The notes beneath the pieces were generated by a model that saw nothing but the letters and a program-made list of their open reading frames with translations, had not been told where the DNA came from and made no database searches. This document shows positions 11,371-34,347 of a DNA stretch of 34,347 nt, piece after piece. The stretch covers positions 1 through 34,347 of the forward strand of contig JAISRC010000140.1 of NCBI GenBank assembly GCA_031273845.1, in the 5' to 3' direction. Made by a program: the position numbers and the translations under genes. The DNA is from Desulfovibrio sp. GTDB taxonomy: Bacteria > Desulfobacterota > Desulfovibrionia > Desulfovibrionales > Desulfovibrionaceae. Position 1 is the first letter of the stretch; each line of letters opens with the position of its first letter.

Positions 11371-11508
11371 CTGAAGTAATTTGATTTTGAGACGCCTCCT
11401 CCGGCGCTTAACGGTGAAACACGGTTTCGCCTTGCCTGCGAGGCGGGCGGCGGTGCTTTGCGCTTACGCCGCCCGGGCATTTTCAACTTTGAAATGCTCT
11501 AATTCCCG
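11371..11508 (+). repeat. Full-length mosaic intergenic repeat (modules B-C-A)
   Basis: AAGTAATTTGATTTTGAGACGCCTCCTCCGGCGCTTAACGG...TTTCGCC...CATTTTCAACTTTGAAATGCTCTAATTCC; inverse of 13054-13186. Confidence 0.85.
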
Positions 11509-11986: not shown

Positions 11987-13057
11987 ATGGACAGAAGCGT
12001 TTTTGAAAGACGCCGCGAAAAACTGCGCCCGCTCCTGCGCGAGACGGGGCTGGCCGCCCTGCTCGTGACTTTGGACGCCGACCGCTTTTATCTGAGCGGC
12101 TTTGAGCTGCATGATGCGCAGATCAACGAAAGCTCCGGTTGCCTGCTGATCACGGCGGACGGCCGGGATACGCTCTGCACCGACCACAGATTTGCTGCCG
12201 CCGCCGCGCGCCTTTGGGATAAAGAGGATATTTTCCTGTACCGGAACAAAGGTATGCCCCAAGTCAACGCCTTGCTCAAAGAACGCGTGTCCGGCGAGAT
12301 CGGCTTTGACCCTTCCGCCCTGAGCGTTGAAGCCTTTGAATTGCTGGGCAACGGTTTGCGGCTGCGCAAAGCCGGCGATTTGGTCGCGGAGCTGCGGGTC
12401 GTCAAGGAAGACGAGGAGATCCGCAGGCTGGAAAACTCCTGCCGCCTGAACCGGGAACTCATGGACAAACTGCCCGGCATGGCGCGTTCCGGCATGACGG
12501 AGGCCTGTCTGGCCCGGGAAATAGAACGCTACTGGCGCGACAGGGGAGCGGAAGAGCTTGCCTTTCCGTCCATCGTGGCCGTGGACGGCAATGCCGCCTT
12601 GCCGCATGCCGTGCCCGGACCCGCCGAAATCACCGATTCCTGTTGTCTGCTCGTGGACGCCGGATGCCGGCTCGACGGTTATTGTTCGGACCAGACCCGC
12701 ACCTTGTGGACAGGCGACAATCCGGACGCCCTTTTTGTTTCGGATCTGGAACTGGTCCGGGAAGCGCAGGAGCGGGCCATACGCGGCATCCGTCCGGGTA
12801 TTGCCGCCTGCGAGGTTTACAAGCTTGCGGCAGCTTTTCTGGCCGGCAAAGGAAGAGGGGATTTGTTCACGCACGGCCTCGGCCACGGGATCGGTCTTCA
12901 GACCCACGAAGCCCCGTCGCTGAACGCAAACTCGGAAAAGGTCCTGCAGCCGGGCATGGTGCTGACCGTGGAACCCGGCCTGTATCGGCAGGGCAGACAC
13001 GGCGTGCGCTGGGAATACATGGTGCTGGTGACCGAAGACGGCGCGCGGGTGCTTTAG
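11987..13057 (+). CDS. M24-family Xaa-Pro aminopeptidase
   Basis: LLVDAGCRLDGYCSDQTRTLW, FTHGLGHGIGLQTHEAPSL, LTVEPGLYRQGRHGVRWEYMVLV. Confidence 0.9.
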   Translation: MDRSVFERRREKLRPLLRETGLAALLVTLDADRFYLSGFELHDAQINESSGCLLITADGRDTLCTDHRFAAAAARLWDKEDIFLYRNKGMPQVNALLKERVSGEIGFDPSALSVEAFELLGNGLRLRKAGDLVAELRVVKEDEEIRRLENSCRLNRELMDKLPGMARSGMTEACLAREIERYWRDRGAEELAFPSIVAVDGNAALPHAVPGPAEITDSCCLLVDAGCRLDGYCSDQTRTLWTGDNPDALFVSDLELVREAQERAIRGIRPGIAACEVYKLAAAFLAGKGRGDLFTHGLGHGIGLQTHEAPSLNANSEKVLQPGMVLTVEPGLYRQGRHGVRWEYMVLVTEDGARVL

Positions 13058-13186
13058 AGCATTTCAAAGTTGAAAATGCTCAGGCGGCGTAAGCGCGAAG
13101 CGCCACCGTACGCCCCGCAGGCGTAGGCGAAACTTGCTTTCGCCGTTAAGCGCCGGAGGAGGCGTTTCAAAATCAAATTGCCTTAG
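13054..13186 (-). repeat. Full-length mosaic intergenic repeat (A-C-B, inverse orientation)
   Basis: TTAGAGCATTTCAAAGTTGAAAATGCTC...GGCGAAACTTGCTTTCGCCGTTAAGCGCCGGAGGAGGCGTTTCAAAATCAAATTGCCTTA. Confidence 0.85.
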
Positions 13187-13363: not shown

Positions 13364-13384
13364 AGGCAATTTGATTTTGAGACG
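13364..13384 (+). repeat. Isolated 'B' module of the mosaic repeat
   Basis: AAGGCAATTTGATTTTGAGACGG, same as the start of the full-length repeat. Confidence 0.7.
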
Positions 13385-13427
13385 GCCGTCCGGTCGAATG
13401 CGCGGGCAAAGGGAAAATTGTCGCAGT

Positions 13428-16253
13428 ATGCCGCTGAAGGAACCCGCCGGGGCGGATCCCGGCAAGAATGTCCGCCGCGCGCGTTTTACCGTGCGCGGAC
13501 AGGTGCAGGGGGTGGGCTTTCGCCCCTTTGTTTTTCTTCTGGCGGAGAAATGCGCCCTCAGCGGTTTCGTGCGCAACGGCCCGGACGGGGTGCTCATTGA
13601 GGTTCAGGGAGAAGAGGATAATCTGCATGCCTTTGCCTGCGGTCTGACACGGGATCTGCCGCCCCTGGCCCGGATCACCGACCTGGACCGCGAAAACCTG
13701 CCCCCGAAGCCGGAGGAAAAGAACTTCGACATAGCGGCCAGCGGCGGCGGCCGGGGGCAATCAGTGCTCGTCAGCCCGGATGTCGGCATCTGCCCGGCAT
13801 GCCTGGCCGAGATCCGGGACAGGACGAACCGGCGTTTCAGGCACCCGTTTGCCAACTGCACGGACTGCGGGCCGCGCTACAGCCTTACCCGCTCCATACC
13901 CTACGACCGTTCCGGCACCAGCATGGCCTGTTTCCCTATGTGCCCGAAATGCCGCGCCGAGTATGAAAATCCCCGCGACCGGCGTTTTCACGCCCAGCCC
14001 AACGCCTGTCCGCACTGCGGCCCCGTGTTGCGGCTGGAACTTCCCGGCGGGACGGGAGAACTCATCCGTATTGAAGGAGACCGGGCACTGCCCGCTCTGG
14101 CGCGTTTTCTGTTTGACGGCGGCATAGCGGCCGTCAAGGGCATAGGCGGTTTTCATCTGGCCTGCGACGCGGGCAATGATCGGGCCGTCGCGGAATTGCG
14201 CCGACGCAAGGGGCGTCCGCACCAGGCCCTGGCGGTGATGGCCGCCGATCTTGCCGAGGTGCGGCGGTTTGTCTCGGCAGGACCCGCAGAGGAAGACGCG
14301 CTCCTGTCTCCCGAACACCCCATAGTCATCTGCCCCCTGCGCCCTTCAATACCGGAAAAGGTTTCAAGCCGTGAAGGGAATTTTGATGAAGCGCCGGACC
14401 CGGACGGGTCCGCGTCCCCTCTTTCTTCCCTTGTTGCACCGGCCGGGTCCGTATCCCGCCTCTCTTCTTCGGTGTCTCCGGACACGCGCACCATCGGCGT
14501 CATGCTGCCTTACAGTCCCCTGCATGTTTTGCTTCTGGACGAATTTACCGCCCTGGTGCGGCAGGAAGGCAGGACGGCCGCTCTTGTGATGACCTCCGGA
14601 AACAGGAGCGGAGAACCCATCTGCCTCGGCAACCGTGAGGCGCGTTCTGTCCTGGCCGGGATTGCGGATGCTTTTCTTTTCCATAACCGGGACATATTGG
14701 TCCGCGTTGACGATTCCGTCGTGCGCCCGCGCGCGTTGCGGGGCTGCCTTTTTGCCCCGCAGGGCACAGGACTTTGGAATTCCGTCGTGCGCCCGCGCGC
14801 GTTGCGGGACGGCAGCCGTCCGGCGCAGGTCGTCGTCGGCAAGGATTCTGTCGTGCGCCCGCGCGCGTCGCGGGACGGGCAAAAGGCCGGTCTGCTCTTT
14901 TTTCGGCGGGCGCGCGGCTTTGTGCCCCGCCCGATCAGTTTCGCGGCATCTGTAGGAAAGAGTGAAGAAGGCCGGCAGGGCGGGACCTTGCCCTGTGTGC
15001 TCGGGGCGGGGGCGGAACTCAAAAATGCCCCCTGTCTGACCAGAGGTACGGATGCCTTTGTCTGCCAGCATACAGGGGATATGGAGGATGCCGGTACGGC
15101 CGCCTTTCATGAGGAAGCGATCGACCACACGGCGCGCCTTCTGCATGTCGCGCCCGAAATCATTGTGCGCGACATGCATCCTGATTCCCTCAGCGGGCGC
15201 ATCGCCGAGGACTATGCCGGACGCTCCGGCCTGCCCGTCCTGCGTCTCCAGCATCATTTCGCCCATGCCCATGCCCTTCTGGCCGAGAACGGCCATGCCG
15301 GCAAGGCGCTGGCGCTGGTGCTTGACGGGTCGGGCTTCGGCTCGGACGGGACACTGTGGGGCGGTGAACTTCTTTTTCTCGATCCGCATCCGGCCGGAGG
15401 CGGGCTGCCGGAACACAGGCGTCTGGCGCGTCTGGCCCCTCTGGATTTGCCGGGCGGCGACGCGGCGGTGCGCGAACCCTGGCGCATCGCCCACGCCCTC
15501 TTGCTGCGTCTGGGCCTGATCGACGGACGAGGCGCGGCGTCCTTCTCCCTGCCCTGGCTCCCGGACAGGAAATTTGCGGCGGACATGCTGCCCGCCATGT
15601 TGCCTGCTGTACCGTCCGCCATACTCATGCCGTCCGGCGGGATCATGACGGACGGCGGGCTGAACACTCCGCGCGGGAGCGGCTGCGGCCGCCTGTTCGA
15701 CGCTGTTTCCGCCCTGCTCGGGCTGTGCCTGGAGGCGAGCTATGAGGGACAGGGGGCGATACGTCTGGAGGAAGCGCAGGGAGTGCCGCCCCCGGCTTCC
15801 GATCTTTCCTTTCCCGACCCCTCTTTCCCTGATCCTTCCTTACCCGATCCCGTTCTGTACCCTTGCCCTTTGCTTCCCGACCCGGAACAGGGGGAGGCCG
15901 GCCTGCTTCTTCTGGACACACGCGCCCTGTTCCGCGCCCTGTGCGAAGACCTTGCCCGCGCTGTTCCTGTCGCGCTCCTCGCGCGGCGTTTCCATCGCAG
16001 TCTTGCGGCCGGTCTTGTGGAAGCCGCGGCCTTTCTGGCTGCAGAGCACGGTTTGCAGACGGCGGGTCTGTCCGGCGGCTGTATGCTGAATATGACCCTG
16101 AGCGAGCTTTTGCGCGAGGGACTGGAAAAAAAGGGGATGACGGTTCTGGAGCACGGCGCGCTGCCGCCGGGAGACGGCTGCATAGGCTTCGGGCAGGCCG
16201 TTTACGGCGCGCTTGTGTCCGTTGTCATGAAGCGAGGTTGTGAAACGGAGTAA
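13428..16253 (+). CDS. hypF: Carbamoyltransferase HypF, enlarged by in-frame insertions
   Basis: Acylphosphatase domain (VRGQVQGVGFRPFVF), four CxxC motifs (CPAC, CTDC, CPKC, CPHC), YrdC-like domain, Kae1-like C-terminus (HHFAHAHALLAENG, GLSGGCMLN). Confidence 0.92.
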   Translation: MPLKEPAGADPGKNVRRARFTVRGQVQGVGFRPFVFLLAEKCALSGFVRNGPDGVLIEVQGEEDNLHAFACGLTRDLPPLARITDLDRENLPPKPEEKNFDIAASGGGRGQSVLVSPDVGICPACLAEIRDRTNRRFRHPFANCTDCGPRYSLTRSIPYDRSGTSMACFPMCPKCRAEYENPRDRRFHAQPNACPHCGPVLRLELPGGTGELIRIEGDRALPALARFLFDGGIAAVKGIGGFHLACDAGNDRAVAELRRRKGRPHQALAVMAADLAEVRRFVSAGPAEEDALLSPEHPIVICPLRPSIPEKVSSREGNFDEAPDPDGSASPLSSLVAPAGSVSRLSSSVSPDTRTIGVMLPYSPLHVLLLDEFTALVRQEGRTAALVMTSGNRSGEPICLGNREARSVLAGIADAFLFHNRDILVRVDDSVVRPRALRGCLFAPQGTGLWNSVVRPRALRDGSRPAQVVVGKDSVVRPRASRDGQKAGLLFFRRARGFVPRPISFAASVGKSEEGRQGGTLPCVLGAGAELKNAPCLTRGTDAFVCQHTGDMEDAGTAAFHEEAIDHTARLLHVAPEIIVRDMHPDSLSGRIAEDYAGRSGLPVLRLQHHFAHAHALLAENGHAGKALALVLDGSGFGSDGTLWGGELLFLDPHPAGGGLPEHRRLARLAPLDLPGGDAAVREPWRIAHALLLRLGLIDGRGAASFSLPWLPDRKFAADMLPAMLPAVPSAILMPSGGIMTDGGLNTPRGSGCGRLFDAVSALLGLCLEASYEGQGAIRLEEAQGVPPPASDLSFPDPSFPDPSLPDPVLYPCPLLPDPEQGEAGLLLLDTRALFRALCEDLARAVPVALLARRFHRSLAAGLVEAAAFLAAEHGLQTAGLSGGCMLNMTLSELLREGLEKKGMTVLEHGALPPGDGCIGFGQAVYGALVSVVMKRGCETE
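14360..14390 (+). repeat. Repeat inside hypF shared with intergenic 18556-18586
   Basis: GGTTTCAAGCCGTGAAGGGAATTTTGATGAA versus GGTTTCAAACCATAAAGGAAATTTTGATGAA: 27/31 identical. Confidence 0.75.
14712..14908 (+). repeat. Three exactly 66-bp-spaced, about 31-bp direct repeats inside hypF
   Basis: GATTCCGTCGTGCGCCCGCGCGCGTTGCGGG at 14712, 14778 and 14844; intervening about 35 nt diverge. Encodes (D/N)SVVRPRA(L/S)R three times. Confidence 0.92.
15800..15890 (+). repeat. Degenerate 15-bp minisatellite in hypF encoding S(F/L)PDP repeats
   Basis: Reads DLSFPDPSFPDPSLPDPVLYPCPLLPDPEQ. Confidence 0.8.
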
Positions 16254-17616: not shown

Positions 17617-17661
17617 TACCTTCAAAATTTTCCCCGCGTTTTTCTGCTCCTGCACGGCCAT

Positions 17662-17727
17662 AGAGCATTTTCAGCTTTGAAATGCTCCAAGCGCCGGGGG
17701 AGGCGTTTCAAAATCAAATTGCCCTAA
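17662..17727 (-). repeat. Mosaic repeat lacking the C module (A then B)
   Basis: AGAGCATTTTCAGCTTTGAAATGCTCCAAGCGCCGGGGGAGGCGTTTCAAAATCAAATTGCCCTAAG. Confidence 0.8.
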
Positions 17728-18699: not shown

Positions 18700-18845
18700 T
18701 TGGAGCATAAATGATTTTGGAACGCTCCACTCGGCGTGGACGGCGAAAGTAAATTTCGCCTACGCCTCATGGGTGGGCGGCGGTTTCCGCCGCTCGGCAT
18801 TTTGTAATTTCATTTGCAGAACGCTCTGAAACAATTTGATTTCGA
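18700..18845 (+). repeat. Divergent copy of the mosaic hairpin repeat
   Basis: GGAGCATAAATGATTTTGGAACGCTCC, GGCGAAAGTAAATTTCGCC, GCGGCGGTTTCCGCCGC, CGCTCTGAAACAATTTGATTTCGA. Confidence 0.7.
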
Positions 18846-24072: not shown

Positions 24073-25574
24073 AAGCGCGCGCGATCTCCGGTCCCCAGTC
24101 CCCGATACGGTCCCCGGCGACATGCATGACGGCCGGCACGACGGAGCATGCGGAAATGTCTGAAAACAGTCTTGATGAAAGCGACATTCACACAAAATTG
24201 TCGATCGGCGCAATCGTCTCCTTTGCGCTCACGTCGGCAATATGTTCTTTGATAATTTTCATAATAGTTGCGACAAAAATCAAAAATGAAAATTTGACGA
24301 TGGAGCAGTGTATTCTCGAAAAAAGCACAAAACTGAATGAGGTTATTTCCAGGCTGCTGTCCAGGACGCATATTATTTCCGCCATGATGGAGATTCGCGA
24401 GGATACGTCGGATGATTTCGAACATATGGCCGCTGCGGTAGTTGATGACCCGGCCATCATGAATATTTTTGTCGCCCCGTCCGGAGTCGTTTCCAAAGTC
24501 TATCCCCTGCATGGGAATGAAAACCTGATCGGCTTGAATCTTTTTGAAGAAGGCGCCGTCGCCGGGGAGGCGGTCCGGGCGAAAGAGCAGGACAGGCTCA
24601 CGTTCGGCGGACCCTTTCCCCTGCCGCAGGGCGGGCAGGCTCTGGCGGGCCTGCTGCCGGTCTTTCTCGGCAGACCCGGCAGCGGAAAGGACTTCCGGGG
24701 ACTGCTGGGCATTACTCTGAAATACCCGCAAGCTATGGCCGACGTCGGCCTGGATGAGCTTTCGCTGTATGGCCTCGGCTATGAACTGTGGAGAATCAAT
24801 CCGGATGGCGATGCAAAGCAGATTATTACGGGCGTCGGCGATCATGTATCCCCCTTCGGGCGTTTTGTCGAGAAGCGTGTAAGCATTGTCGACGCGGACT
24901 GGAACCTGCGCATCGGTGTCGCCGGCAAGTGGTATGACGCCCCGGAAATCCGGGCGATGATTCCGGTCGCTTTACTCATAAGTTTTCTGGTTGCTTTTCT
25001 TATGCAAAAAAGATTTGACTTAAAAGCAATGAAAAAATTAAAGCACATGGCCTACATAGACTCGTTGACAGAGGTATTCAACAGACGCTGTTTTATGGAG
25101 TTGGCATCCTTGCGCATTGAGATGCTGAAAAGAACAAAAGAATTCGGATTTTTAATTATATTTGATTTGGACAATTTCAAGAAAATAAATGATACCTATG
25201 GACATCTCGCCGGAGATGAAGTCTTGAGGGTCATTCCCGGCCGAATAAAAATGTGCATTCGCCCTTATGACCTGATGGCGCGCTACGGCGGAGATGAATT
25301 CATAATGTTTATTACATGCGCTGATGCAACGGATATAGCGGATGTCGTGGAGCGTTGCAGACGCAGCATTGCCGGCAAGCCGGTCGAGTTTGAAGACAAA
25401 AATATACCCGTCACCGCAAGTTTCGGCGTTGCTGCGTTTTCCCCGGACCTGGATCTCAAAACGGCAATGAAATTTGCGGACGAAGCGCTTTACGGCGCAA
25501 AGAAAAAGGGACGCAACATATGCGATATGCATGGTAATTGCGAATTGCTGCCGCTTTATTCCGGGCACGGCTGA
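24069..25574 (+). CDS. Membrane diguanylate cyclase with extracytoplasmic sensor domain and GGDEF domain
   Basis: Two hydrophobic segments flank a sensor-like region; DLDNFKKINDTYGHLAGDEVL, RYGGDEFIMF. The start may be internal (24156). Confidence 0.88.
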   Translation: MKARAISGPQSPIRSPATCMTAGTTEHAEMSENSLDESDIHTKLSIGAIVSFALTSAICSLIIFIIVATKIKNENLTMEQCILEKSTKLNEVISRLLSRTHIISAMMEIREDTSDDFEHMAAAVVDDPAIMNIFVAPSGVVSKVYPLHGNENLIGLNLFEEGAVAGEAVRAKEQDRLTFGGPFPLPQGGQALAGLLPVFLGRPGSGKDFRGLLGITLKYPQAMADVGLDELSLYGLGYELWRINPDGDAKQIITGVGDHVSPFGRFVEKRVSIVDADWNLRIGVAGKWYDAPEIRAMIPVALLISFLVAFLMQKRFDLKAMKKLKHMAYIDSLTEVFNRRCFMELASLRIEMLKRTKEFGFLIIFDLDNFKKINDTYGHLAGDEVLRVIPGRIKMCIRPYDLMARYGGDEFIMFITCADATDIADVVERCRRSIAGKPVEFEDKNIPVTASFGVAAFSPDLDLKTAMKFADEALYGAKKKGRNICDMHGNCELLPLYSGHG

Positions 25575-25578
25575 GGCC

Positions 25579-25752
25579 GTCTGATTTGGAGACGCCTCCT
25601 CCGGCGCTTAACGTCGAAACGCGGGTTCGCCTCGGGGCGGGTGGCGGCGCTGTTTCTGCGGGCCGCATCCTTAAGCCGGAAAGACCGGCTTAAGGTTTTT
25701 GCTCGCGCTTTCGTCGCCTGAGCATTTTCAACTTTGAAATGCTCCAATTCCA
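25579..25752 (+). repeat. Mosaic repeat (B-C-A) with an extra hairpin
   Basis: CTGATTTGGAGACGCCTCCTCCGGCGCTTAACG...CTGAGCATTTTCAACTTTGAAATGCTCCAATTCC. Confidence 0.85.
25669..25700 (+). terminator. Strong Rho-independent terminator inside the mosaic repeat
   Basis: CCTTAAGCCGG-AAAGA-CCGGCTTAAGG-TTTTT, 11-bp perfect stem. Confidence 0.8.
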
Positions 25753-31311: not shown

Positions 31312-32229
31312 TCAGCGCGCCGCGGTCTTCGGCGGAGACTTCATTATCGTTCCCGGGGGGAGAATAAGGGAGGTCTGTTCCCCGGTGTAGGGCGGGGAAA
31401 CACGCTCCGATTCCCGGACGGAAATCAGGGCCGAATCGCCGCGCGCATGGAAAACACGCAGCCTTTCCGGGCGCATCGGGTCGCCGGCAGCGCTTTCCGG
31501 TATCTCAATTGTCCATCCGTTCTCACCGCGCCAGACCAAAGGTGTGCCGTCAAAGGACAGTTCCAGCAGACCGGGCAACGCGGCGTTCCGCAGAGTGAAG
31601 CGGCAGCCGCCGGCGGAGGGGCGGTGTTCGGGAACGGCGTCTTTCCCGTCGGGCGGCAGAAAGAGCGGTCCCCAACGCCCTGTGAGCAGCAGAGCAAGGT
31701 CGGACAGGGAGAAGGGGAGAGGGACGCCGAAAGAGGTCAGGGAGCGTTGCTCGTCCTGTTGCAGATAGGCGGTGTTTTCGTTCGGGATATAAAGCAGGGT
31801 GGACTGTCCGTCTTCACGGATCTTTGCGGCGACCATGCCCATGCCCACCTGCAGGTCGAGGCGCAGGGGCAGGGGAGCGCCGCTCATACCGTTGCCCCAG
31901 AGCAGGATTGCGGCGCGCCGGGTACTTCCCTTGGTATCTGTATAGCGCAACCCGGCACTCAGGCGGAAGGGGCCGTCCATGGGCCCGCCTTTTTCCGCGC
32001 GTTCGCGGAAGCTTTGCCAGATTTCCGCGCCCCTGTCGGCGGAGGCGTTCTGTTCTTCCGAAGGCGTTGCGAGGTGGGGCGCCTGCGCGCCTGCGCAGGC
32101 CTGAAGCAGGAGGGCCAAGGCAAGAACGAGGAATACGGTGTTTTTTTGCACTCCATACGGGACGCCACCGCCTGCCAGCCGCCGGAGGGCAAGAACGAGG
32201 AATGCGGTGTTTTTTTGCACTGTGTTCAT
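31312..32229 (-). CDS. Outer-membrane lipoprotein, LolB-like context, with duplicated signal-peptide segment
   Basis: Lipobox LLLQACAG; N-terminal VQKNT(A/V)FLVLAL occurs twice. Confidence 0.65.
   Translation of the reverse strand: MNTVQKNTAFLVLALRRLAGGGVPYGVQKNTVFLVLALALLLQACAGAQAPHLATPSEEQNASADRGAEIWQSFRERAEKGGPMDGPFRLSAGLRYTDTKGSTRRAAILLWGNGMSGAPLPLRLDLQVGMGMVAAKIREDGQSTLLYIPNENTAYLQQDEQRSLTSFGVPLPFSLSDLALLLTGRWGPLFLPPDGKDAVPEHRPSAGGCRFTLRNAALPGLLELSFDGTPLVWRGENGWTIEIPESAAGDPMRPERLRVFHARGDSALISVRESERVSPPYTGEQTSLILPPGTIMKSPPKTAAR
32119..32220. repeat. 33-bp direct repeat, two copies 69 bp apart, in the lipoprotein N-terminus
   Basis: GGCAAGAACGAGGAAT(A/G)CGGTGTTTTTTTGCAC at 32119-32151 and 32188-32220, one mismatch. 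Confidence 0.93.
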
Positions 32230-33210: not shown

Positions 33211-33786
33211 TCAGGTGAAGTCCGTCCCGATAATGAGTTCGGCGGCCGCACGCAGGTCGTCCGCGACAGGCAGACCCGCGGGCATATCCGCTTCGGCCCT
33301 GTGGCCGTAGCCGGTGCGGACCAGGATGGAGCGGCAGCCGGCAGCCCGTCCGGCCCGGATGTCGGAAATTTTGTCCCCTATCATCCATGAGCGTTTGCAA
33401 TCCAGACCGAGTTCCTCCGTAGCCCGCAACAGAAGTCCGGGTTTCGGCTTGCGGCAGGAACAGTCGCCCGTAAAGTCCGGGTGATGCGGGCAGTAATAAA
33501 AAGCATCTATGATCGCGCCGCGGCCGGCCAGATCTTCGTTCACATAGTCGTGCAGGGCATCCACGTCCGCGGTTCCGTATAGTCCCCGCGCCAATCCCGA
33601 CTGGTTGCTGACCACTACCAGTCTGTATCCGAAGCCATGCAGGCGGGCCAGTGCCTGCGGCGCGCCGGGGAGCCATTGCCAACCCGCCCGGTCGTGCACA
33701 TAGCCTGTTTCAAGGTTCAAGGTGCCGTCGCGGTCAAGGAACACGGCGGAACCGGGAGATATAGGCGATACCGTCGGCAGTTTCAC
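33211..33786 (-). CDS. gmhB: D-glycero-manno-heptose 1,7-bisphosphate 7-phosphatase
   Basis: AVFLDRDGTLN, VVVSNQSGLARGLY, YYCPHHPDFTGDCSCRKPKPGLL, WMIGDKISDIRAG. Confidence 0.93.
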   Translation of the reverse strand: MKLPTVSPISPGSAVFLDRDGTLNLETGYVHDRAGWQWLPGAPQALARLHGFGYRLVVVSNQSGLARGLYGTADVDALHDYVNEDLAGRGAIIDAFYYCPHHPDFTGDCSCRKPKPGLLLRATEELGLDCKRSWMIGDKISDIRAGRAAGCRSILVRTGYGHRAEADMPAGLPVADDLRAAAELIIGTDFT

Positions 33787-33798
33787 GGCGCTTTTCCT

Positions 33799-34052
33799 TA
33801 GAGCATTTTACGCTTGAGATTGTCGCTCACGGCGGGCACAGCCCGCCTGCTCCAATCCCGCGGCAAGGATTTGCCGGCAAATCCTTGCAGAGCAGATTGA
33901 CATTGAAAATGTCAATCTGCTCTAATTCGTTTCCAGATAAAAATTGCGTCCTGCAATTTTTATCTGTCGGTTGCGGCGAAAGCGTGGTTTCGCCTTACCC
34001 CTCGAAATGCTTTGCATTTCGACGCGACATCTTGTCGCGTATTCCAATTCTA
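33799..34052. repeat. Tandem array of seven distinct perfect hairpins with mosaic-repeat edge motifs
   Basis: See the finding at 33831-34040 for arms and coordinates. Confidence 0.92.
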
Positions 34053-34054
34053 AA

Positions 34055-34347
34055 TTCATTGCTGTCCGGCTAAGGGTTAAAAAATATGTTCAAAATCTCC
34101 ATGATTCATGCTACAAAACAGCTATCAACACCATTGCAGCTCAAGGAGATTTTGAACATGGCCCACCATAACACACTCTTCTCGCAAACGCTGTCGCTCA
34201 TTCCCAGACATGTTTTTCAGAAATTTGAACATCGACAAGACCGGGCGTTCGTCACGCAAATTCGGCTTCAAGGAGCAGTTCTCCGCCATGGCTTTTATCC
34301 AGCTTGCCGCAAGGCGTTCCATGCGAGATGGCGTTCGCGCACTCTCG
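34055..34347 (+). mobile_element. 5' end of an IS4-type (DUF4372-like) insertion sequence, running off the right edge
   Basis: Transposase ATG at 34158: MAHHNTLFSQTLSLIPRHVFQKFE, then +1 frame KTGRSSRKFGFKEQFSAMAFIQLAARRSMRDGVRAL. Confidence 0.82.
34086..34159 (+). promoter_or_regulatory. Hairpin that would sequester the transposase ribosome-binding site and start codon
   Basis: ATGTTCAAAATCTCC (34086-34100) pairs perfectly with GGAGATTTTGAACAT (34145-34159), covering SD GGAG and the ATG at 34158. The left IS copy has the same arms at 38-52 and 97-111. Confidence 0.8.

Follow-up and report, generated by a model that had tools for sequence, protein, structure and literature searches.

Seven perfect hairpins in a Desulfovibrio contig are parts of two adjoining small noncoding mobile elements

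Near one end of the window (the whole stretch of Desulfovibrio DNA that was analyzed, 34,347 nucleotides long), seven hairpins follow one another between positions 33831 and 34040. What kind of DNA is this, and what keeps its stems perfect? Direct inspection found all seven predicted stems (7/7) with perfectly complementary arms; base 34022 is common to hairpins 6 and 7. Counting only perfect, nonoverlapping stems of ≥7 bp with loops of ≤10, the array has 6, whereas 2,000 dinucleotide shuffles averaged 0.18 and never exceeded 3. Thus, the hairpins are far above chance, and by the same count their density is equaled nowhere else in the window. The predicted list overlooked two things. An outer helix (CGC..GAGATTG with CAATCCC..GCG, one mismatch in the window copy) closes the first hairpin, and an eighth hairpin, with a 20-bp stem in intact copies, follows the seventh; only one of its arms, ATTCCAATTCTAAATT, is left before an insertion sequence (IS) that starts exactly at 34057 and cuts it off.

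When positions 33790 to 34060 were compared by BLAST with the genome of origin (2.6 Mb in 191 contigs), the stretch split in two. Positions 33798 to 33925 recurred about 38 times and positions 33921 to 34056 several times, mostly separately (copy numbers here are copies scored by the search). What repeats is therefore no single hairpin; there are two composite units, which we call A and B. The original prediction, an array of freely interchangeable single-hairpin cassettes, does not hold in that form, since hairpins 1 to 3 travel together as A and hairpins 4 to 7, with the eighth, as B; what survives of it is the exchange of one hairpin, P4, at the 3′ end of A. Dispersal of the units was borne out, as both elements are repeated genome-wide. 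Nor is the array unique to the window or an assembly artifact at a contig end: A and B have the same order and junction, at 79% identity, on contig C4, the sole other such locus in this genome; the window's A-B junction is that of L009/L218. The seven hairpins are thus two adjoining small noncoding mobile elements of termite gut Desulfovibrio, a habitat that we take from isolate names recalling termite gut surveys of the metagenome-assembled genomes (MAGs) concerned. A and B are apparently undescribed families of a known kind, the MITE or interspersed mosaic repeat; a search of the available literature on Desulfovibrio MITEs returned nothing relevant.

The copy of A in the window is complete (33798 to 33925, forward strand), is of the IS630 type, has the ends TTAGAGCATTTTACG...AATCTGCTCTAA, and scores 132 bits with a covariance model built from 47 copies. 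It consists of four helices, all on the forward strand: P1 (33811 to 33862, the outer helix) encloses P2 (33831 to 33847, GGCGGGC-aca-GCCCGCC) and is followed by P3 (33863 to 33888, GCAAGGATTTGCCGGCAAATCCTTGC) and by P4 (33889 to 33923), a 16-bp perfect stem. A is about 128 bp long, within MITE size (<200 to 300 bp), encodes no protein, and is dispersed in many copies, with 98 BLAST pieces making up the approximately 38 copies in 2.6 Mb. Its terminal inverted repeats are TAGAGCA...TGCTCTA, which copies of the A2 type extend into a long closing stem. Of 248 genomes searched in the order, 37 had hits to the covariance model, complete genomes from a different genus among them, and A-related DNA occurred in 30 of 149 genomes of the family, including 9/9 of the genus sampled. 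Exact matches to the core came nearly all from Desulfovibrio MAGs. On the reverse strand beside A lies a gene for a HAD-type phosphatase (33211 to 33786, from its open reading frame [ORF] and Pfam), with 11 bp between its start codon and the edge of A.

Where A inserts can be read from sites that lack it. In a second genus, two orthologous empty sites have a single TA: CTCCAC-TA-G in G221, compared with the occupied locus of G223, and GCGGGGC-TA-TCCCC in G146, compared with G227. The TA of the G221 site is within a stop codon. Two further comparisons (L248 with L296 and L236 with L300) were contiguous, but their junctions were too diverged to read. Independently of these, four loci in the genome of origin have A within a different repeat, C, at CGCCGT-TA-AGCGCC. 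The uninterrupted form of this site is common (170 matches with ≤1 mismatch versus 11 for a reversed control), which makes the comparison a paralogous one; all four loci have one orientation and may descend from a single event. These two orthologous and one paralogous empty sites show that insertion of A duplicates TA. As predicted, relatives differ by the gain of hairpin units as wholes. By analogy with these family members, the TAs at 33799 to 33800 and 33923 to 33924 are the presumed target duplication in the window.

Several observations were made on the sites around A. Repeat C is itself a multihairpin repeat, with GAGCATTTTCAACTTTGAAATGCTCTA ends; copies or fragments lie in the window at 11374 to 11502, 13054 to 13185, 17648 to 17726, 18712 to 18783, and 25571 to 25751, and the genome has at least 40 scored copies among 408 candidates. 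In loci L236 to L295, about 17 of 63 copies have an edge exactly at the stop codon of a gene, L242 being an example; comparison of L242 with L297 showed that insertion used the TA of the gene's own TAG. In L011, L014, L016, L017, L020, L028, L030, and L032, A adjoins a repeat ending in GGAGYYTGTCGGAC, with only TA shared, and this repeat is probably a further TA-targeting element.

The ends of A suggest what moves it. An IS630 of the same genus (L183, 998 bp, with overlapping reading frames) has the ends TAGAGCATTTTAACTTTGAAA...TTTCAAAGTTAAAATGCTCTA, and the right end of A2-type copies, TTTCAAAGTCAAAATGCTCTAA, agrees with it at 20 of 21 bases. The good match is restricted to the A2 type; the main A subfamily shares with IS630 ends only about 12 bp on the left and about 7 bp on the right. 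The genome of origin (incomplete, 2.6 Mb) yielded no intact IS630, only relics, one of which (L146, DDE_3 by Pfam, IS630 type) has the right end GTCAAAATGCTCTA. Given these ends and the target site, and following the same reasoning as for RUP in pneumococcus, we take an IS630 as the likely helper of A, the transposase of which would move A in trans. An A2-type copy lies inside an IS630-type transposase gene (L149, contig C27 of the genome of origin, 187 to 315), so that the MITE sits in a gene resembling that of its likely helper. In L183 (1 to 998), the two overlapping frames meet at an A-rich stretch, which suggests programmed frameshifting.

Element B (33926 to 34056, forward strand) has its right end cut and shares TAA (33923 to 33925) with A at the junction. 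Its hairpins, all on the forward strand, are a 14-bp stem (33934 to 33966), a 7-bp stem within a short outer helix (33975 to 33994), two more at 34002 to 34022 and 34022 to 34040, and the 5′ arm alone of a fifth (34041 to 34056), which is the 20-bp stem that is intact in L203, L213, L209, L047, L206, and others. B is about 170 bp when intact and has at least nine copies in the genome of origin, again the size and copy number of a MITE. Its terminal inverted repeats are only an imperfect TTCG...GGAA. In all complete copies (8/8), these ends are flanked left and right by the same three bases, either TTA or TAA. From these flanks we infer that B is a second MITE, one that would duplicate TTA or TAA. 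Transposons of the IS5 group duplicate TNA targets, and the 3-bp duplication read from B's flanks agrees with that form. Both in the window and in L218, A ends on its right in TAA, so that B was most likely inserted there; L218 also has TAA beyond the far side of B. At one further locus, B adjoins the end of a copy of C in the same manner. The predicted recurrence of edge motifs such as TGCTCTAATTC is real, and it arises because A inserts at TA and B at TTA or TAA, sites that A's own ends offer. The IS that interrupts B runs off the contig (left end, 34057 to 34347, forward strand). Five other copies in the genome of origin start exactly at the base corresponding to 34057, and one of these is at positions 1 to 140 of the window on the opposite strand; the other end of the contig is thus within the same IS.

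As to why the stems are perfect, the original prediction gave two alternatives, strong compensation or copying of the units as hairpins, and both have a part. Among the 47 copies of A, 94.3% of cells were paired and 22 of 37 pairs had changed on both sides; the covariation score was 0.210 versus 0.102 (SD, 0.005) when shuffled and 0.04 to 0.08 when slid. By helix, the paired cells were 94.7% over the 47 copies for P1 (7 of 10 pairs changed on both sides), 97% for P2 (3 pairs with double changes), and 96.3% for P3 (6 pairs). The six helices of B had 21 of 60 pairs changed on both sides, including 6/14 in its first hairpin and 3/7 in its second, and a score of 0.167 versus 0.092 (SD, 0.006) when shuffled; kinship among copies inflates these counts for both elements. 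Because the structures were partly read off the same sequences, more weight belongs to the both-sided changes and to the comparison with shuffles. RNAalifold recovered P1 to P3 from the A alignment but not P4.

Young copies behaved differently. Among 28 young A copies in the genome of origin there were 49 changes from the paired state, of which 48 were one-sided (24 to A-C, 12 to G-U, and 12 to other mismatches) and 1 was compensated. Hence, compensation is seen when subfamilies are compared and is almost absent among recent copies. The prediction had held that stems decaying without compensatory changes would speak against it; the young copies do decay in this way, whereas between subfamilies the stems covary. 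This pattern fits selection or correction in source lineages, not a function of every copy. The rate of change in young copies was 0.029 at paired sites versus 0.072 at unpaired sites, or about half, and some selection on each copy could account for the difference.

Copying of one arm from the other was seen in P4 of the window (33889 to 33923). It differs from the own-genome consensus at hairpin positions 10, 11, 17, 18, and 19, and all five match what copying from the opposite arm and loop in reverse complement would give; that is, the 5′ arm and loop are the reverse complement of the family consensus loop and 3′ arm. The five changes perfect the stem and invert the loop. Locus L114 has an exact inversion of its subfamily's commonest P4, which amounts to nine simultaneous differences, and L117 has an almost exact one; in all, 3 of 74 P4 hairpins scored were inverted. 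Arm homogenization plus loop inversion is the described footprint of template switching in replication (PMC8794818), and both occur in one event in the window and in L114, although the published cases are RNA genes and ours are mobile repeats. The window's 16-bp stem is clearly such an arm-copying product; recombination between oppositely oriented copies is an alternative for this and the other P4 events. P4 is also the truly cassette-like part of A: otherwise similar A bodies carry very different P4 sequences, and A2 copies have none, their two ends pairing together instead. With many copies of graded age, these elements offer suitable natural material for measuring how template switching repairs hairpins.

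To the original prediction these hairpins matched no known family, but their behavior is that of MITEs, and the nearest is the pneumococcal RUP. RUP is about 107 bp long, has >100 copies, inserts at TA, has IS630-like ends, and is believed to be mobilized in trans (PMC2229807, PMC3049150). With RUP and its IS630-Spn1, A has in common short length, many copies, a TA target, and IS630-like ends; like A and B, RUP is strongly folded. The likeness is one of behavior, not of compared sequences. Furthermore, the termini of RUP pair together, whereas in most A copies the 3′ end forms a hairpin of its own (P4), and both A and B contain several covarying internal hairpins. Correia/NEMIS, NIMEs, BOX, and BIMEs are, like A and B, short, noncoding, folded, intergenic, and combined into composites. 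They belong to other hosts and have no known sequence relation to A or B, the composites of which are explained by serial insertion at TA or TTA/TAA. By description, the rhizobial RIME/ABC palindromic elements, multipalindrome intergenic mosaics in a proteobacterium, are also similar.

Very probably, then, A and B are adjoining nonautonomous transposable elements, brought together and maintained by a mechanism of which three points are our reconstruction: which transposase helps A, in what order the insertions took place, and why source elements stay folded. An IS630 (Tc1/mariner-like) transposase acting in trans would recognize the GAGCA...TGCTC ends of A, which would insert at TA and duplicate it; B would then insert in the TAA at A's right edge, and a later IS insertion would cut B. 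Since every insertion leaves fresh TA or TAA sites at its edges, clusters would build up. The internal hairpins would be passed on with mobile source copies, single copies decaying after insertion. Perfect stems would persist because template switching copies one arm from the other, presumably beyond the one stem in which we saw it, and because folded source lineages may amplify best. The case illustrates how perfect hairpins may spread and be kept up, and the two families, abundant in Desulfovibrionaceae, break assemblies and often lie at gene ends.

A stronger version, which we consider improbable, is that the multihairpin fold itself is needed for mobilization, for example, in a single-stranded or cruciform step aiding the DDE-type IS630 transposase. 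If so, these MITEs would be under RNA-like covariation selection on DNA, with template switching supplying the compensatory changes.

That the hairpins are selected as RNA, a cis-regulatory element or small RNA of which the copies serve adjoining genes, seems very unlikely. The strong covariation in A and B would suit it, but departures from pairing to G-U and to A-C were nearly equal (47 and 56 cells in A, 26 and 17 in B), so neither strand behaves as RNA. Young copies decay without compensation, insertions are missing at orthologous sites, and Rfam had no family match at either gathering or relaxed thresholds. Orientation relative to neighboring genes (called with a simple codon usage script) was biased in the termite gut loci L066 to L145, where, between codirectional genes, 36 of 40 copies were antisense and 4 sense. 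It was unbiased in the genome of origin (6 sense, 7 antisense) and 22 to 11 in eight other genomes (P = 0.08). With the bias confined to one set of loci and unclear elsewhere, we do not use it as an argument. A tRNA scan found none, and a promoter scan was at chance level. As a warning, strong stem covariation in mobile DNA need not reflect an RNA function in the host.

We give little chance to REP- or BIME-like palindromes moved as single-stranded DNA by a Y1 transposase (RAYT/TnpA-REP) with the hairpins as substrate. The hairpins are conserved as structures and the genome has two Y1_Tnp genes, but both loci (L150 and L151) are without A, B, or GAGCA ends, and TA duplication with IS630-like ends indicates a DDE transposase. 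Stacked transcription terminators adjoining by chance are hardly credible: the perfect stems are rich in G+C and copies often lie at gene ends (22 convergent versus 8 divergent, besides those exactly at a stop codon), but this origin is refuted by the absence of trailing T tracts (a scan found 1 candidate versus 1.1 expected by shuffling) and by the mobility of whole multihairpin units repeated with fixed order and ends. Secondary attenuation of transcription by the mobile elements A and B is possible.

Two other repeats were noted in the window. A 66-bp unit is present in three tandem copies at 14713 to 14879, within a long ORF (13371 to 16253), and a 34-bp direct repeat, its copies 69 bp apart, lies at 32119 to 32221, at the start of the gene at 31312 to 32229.
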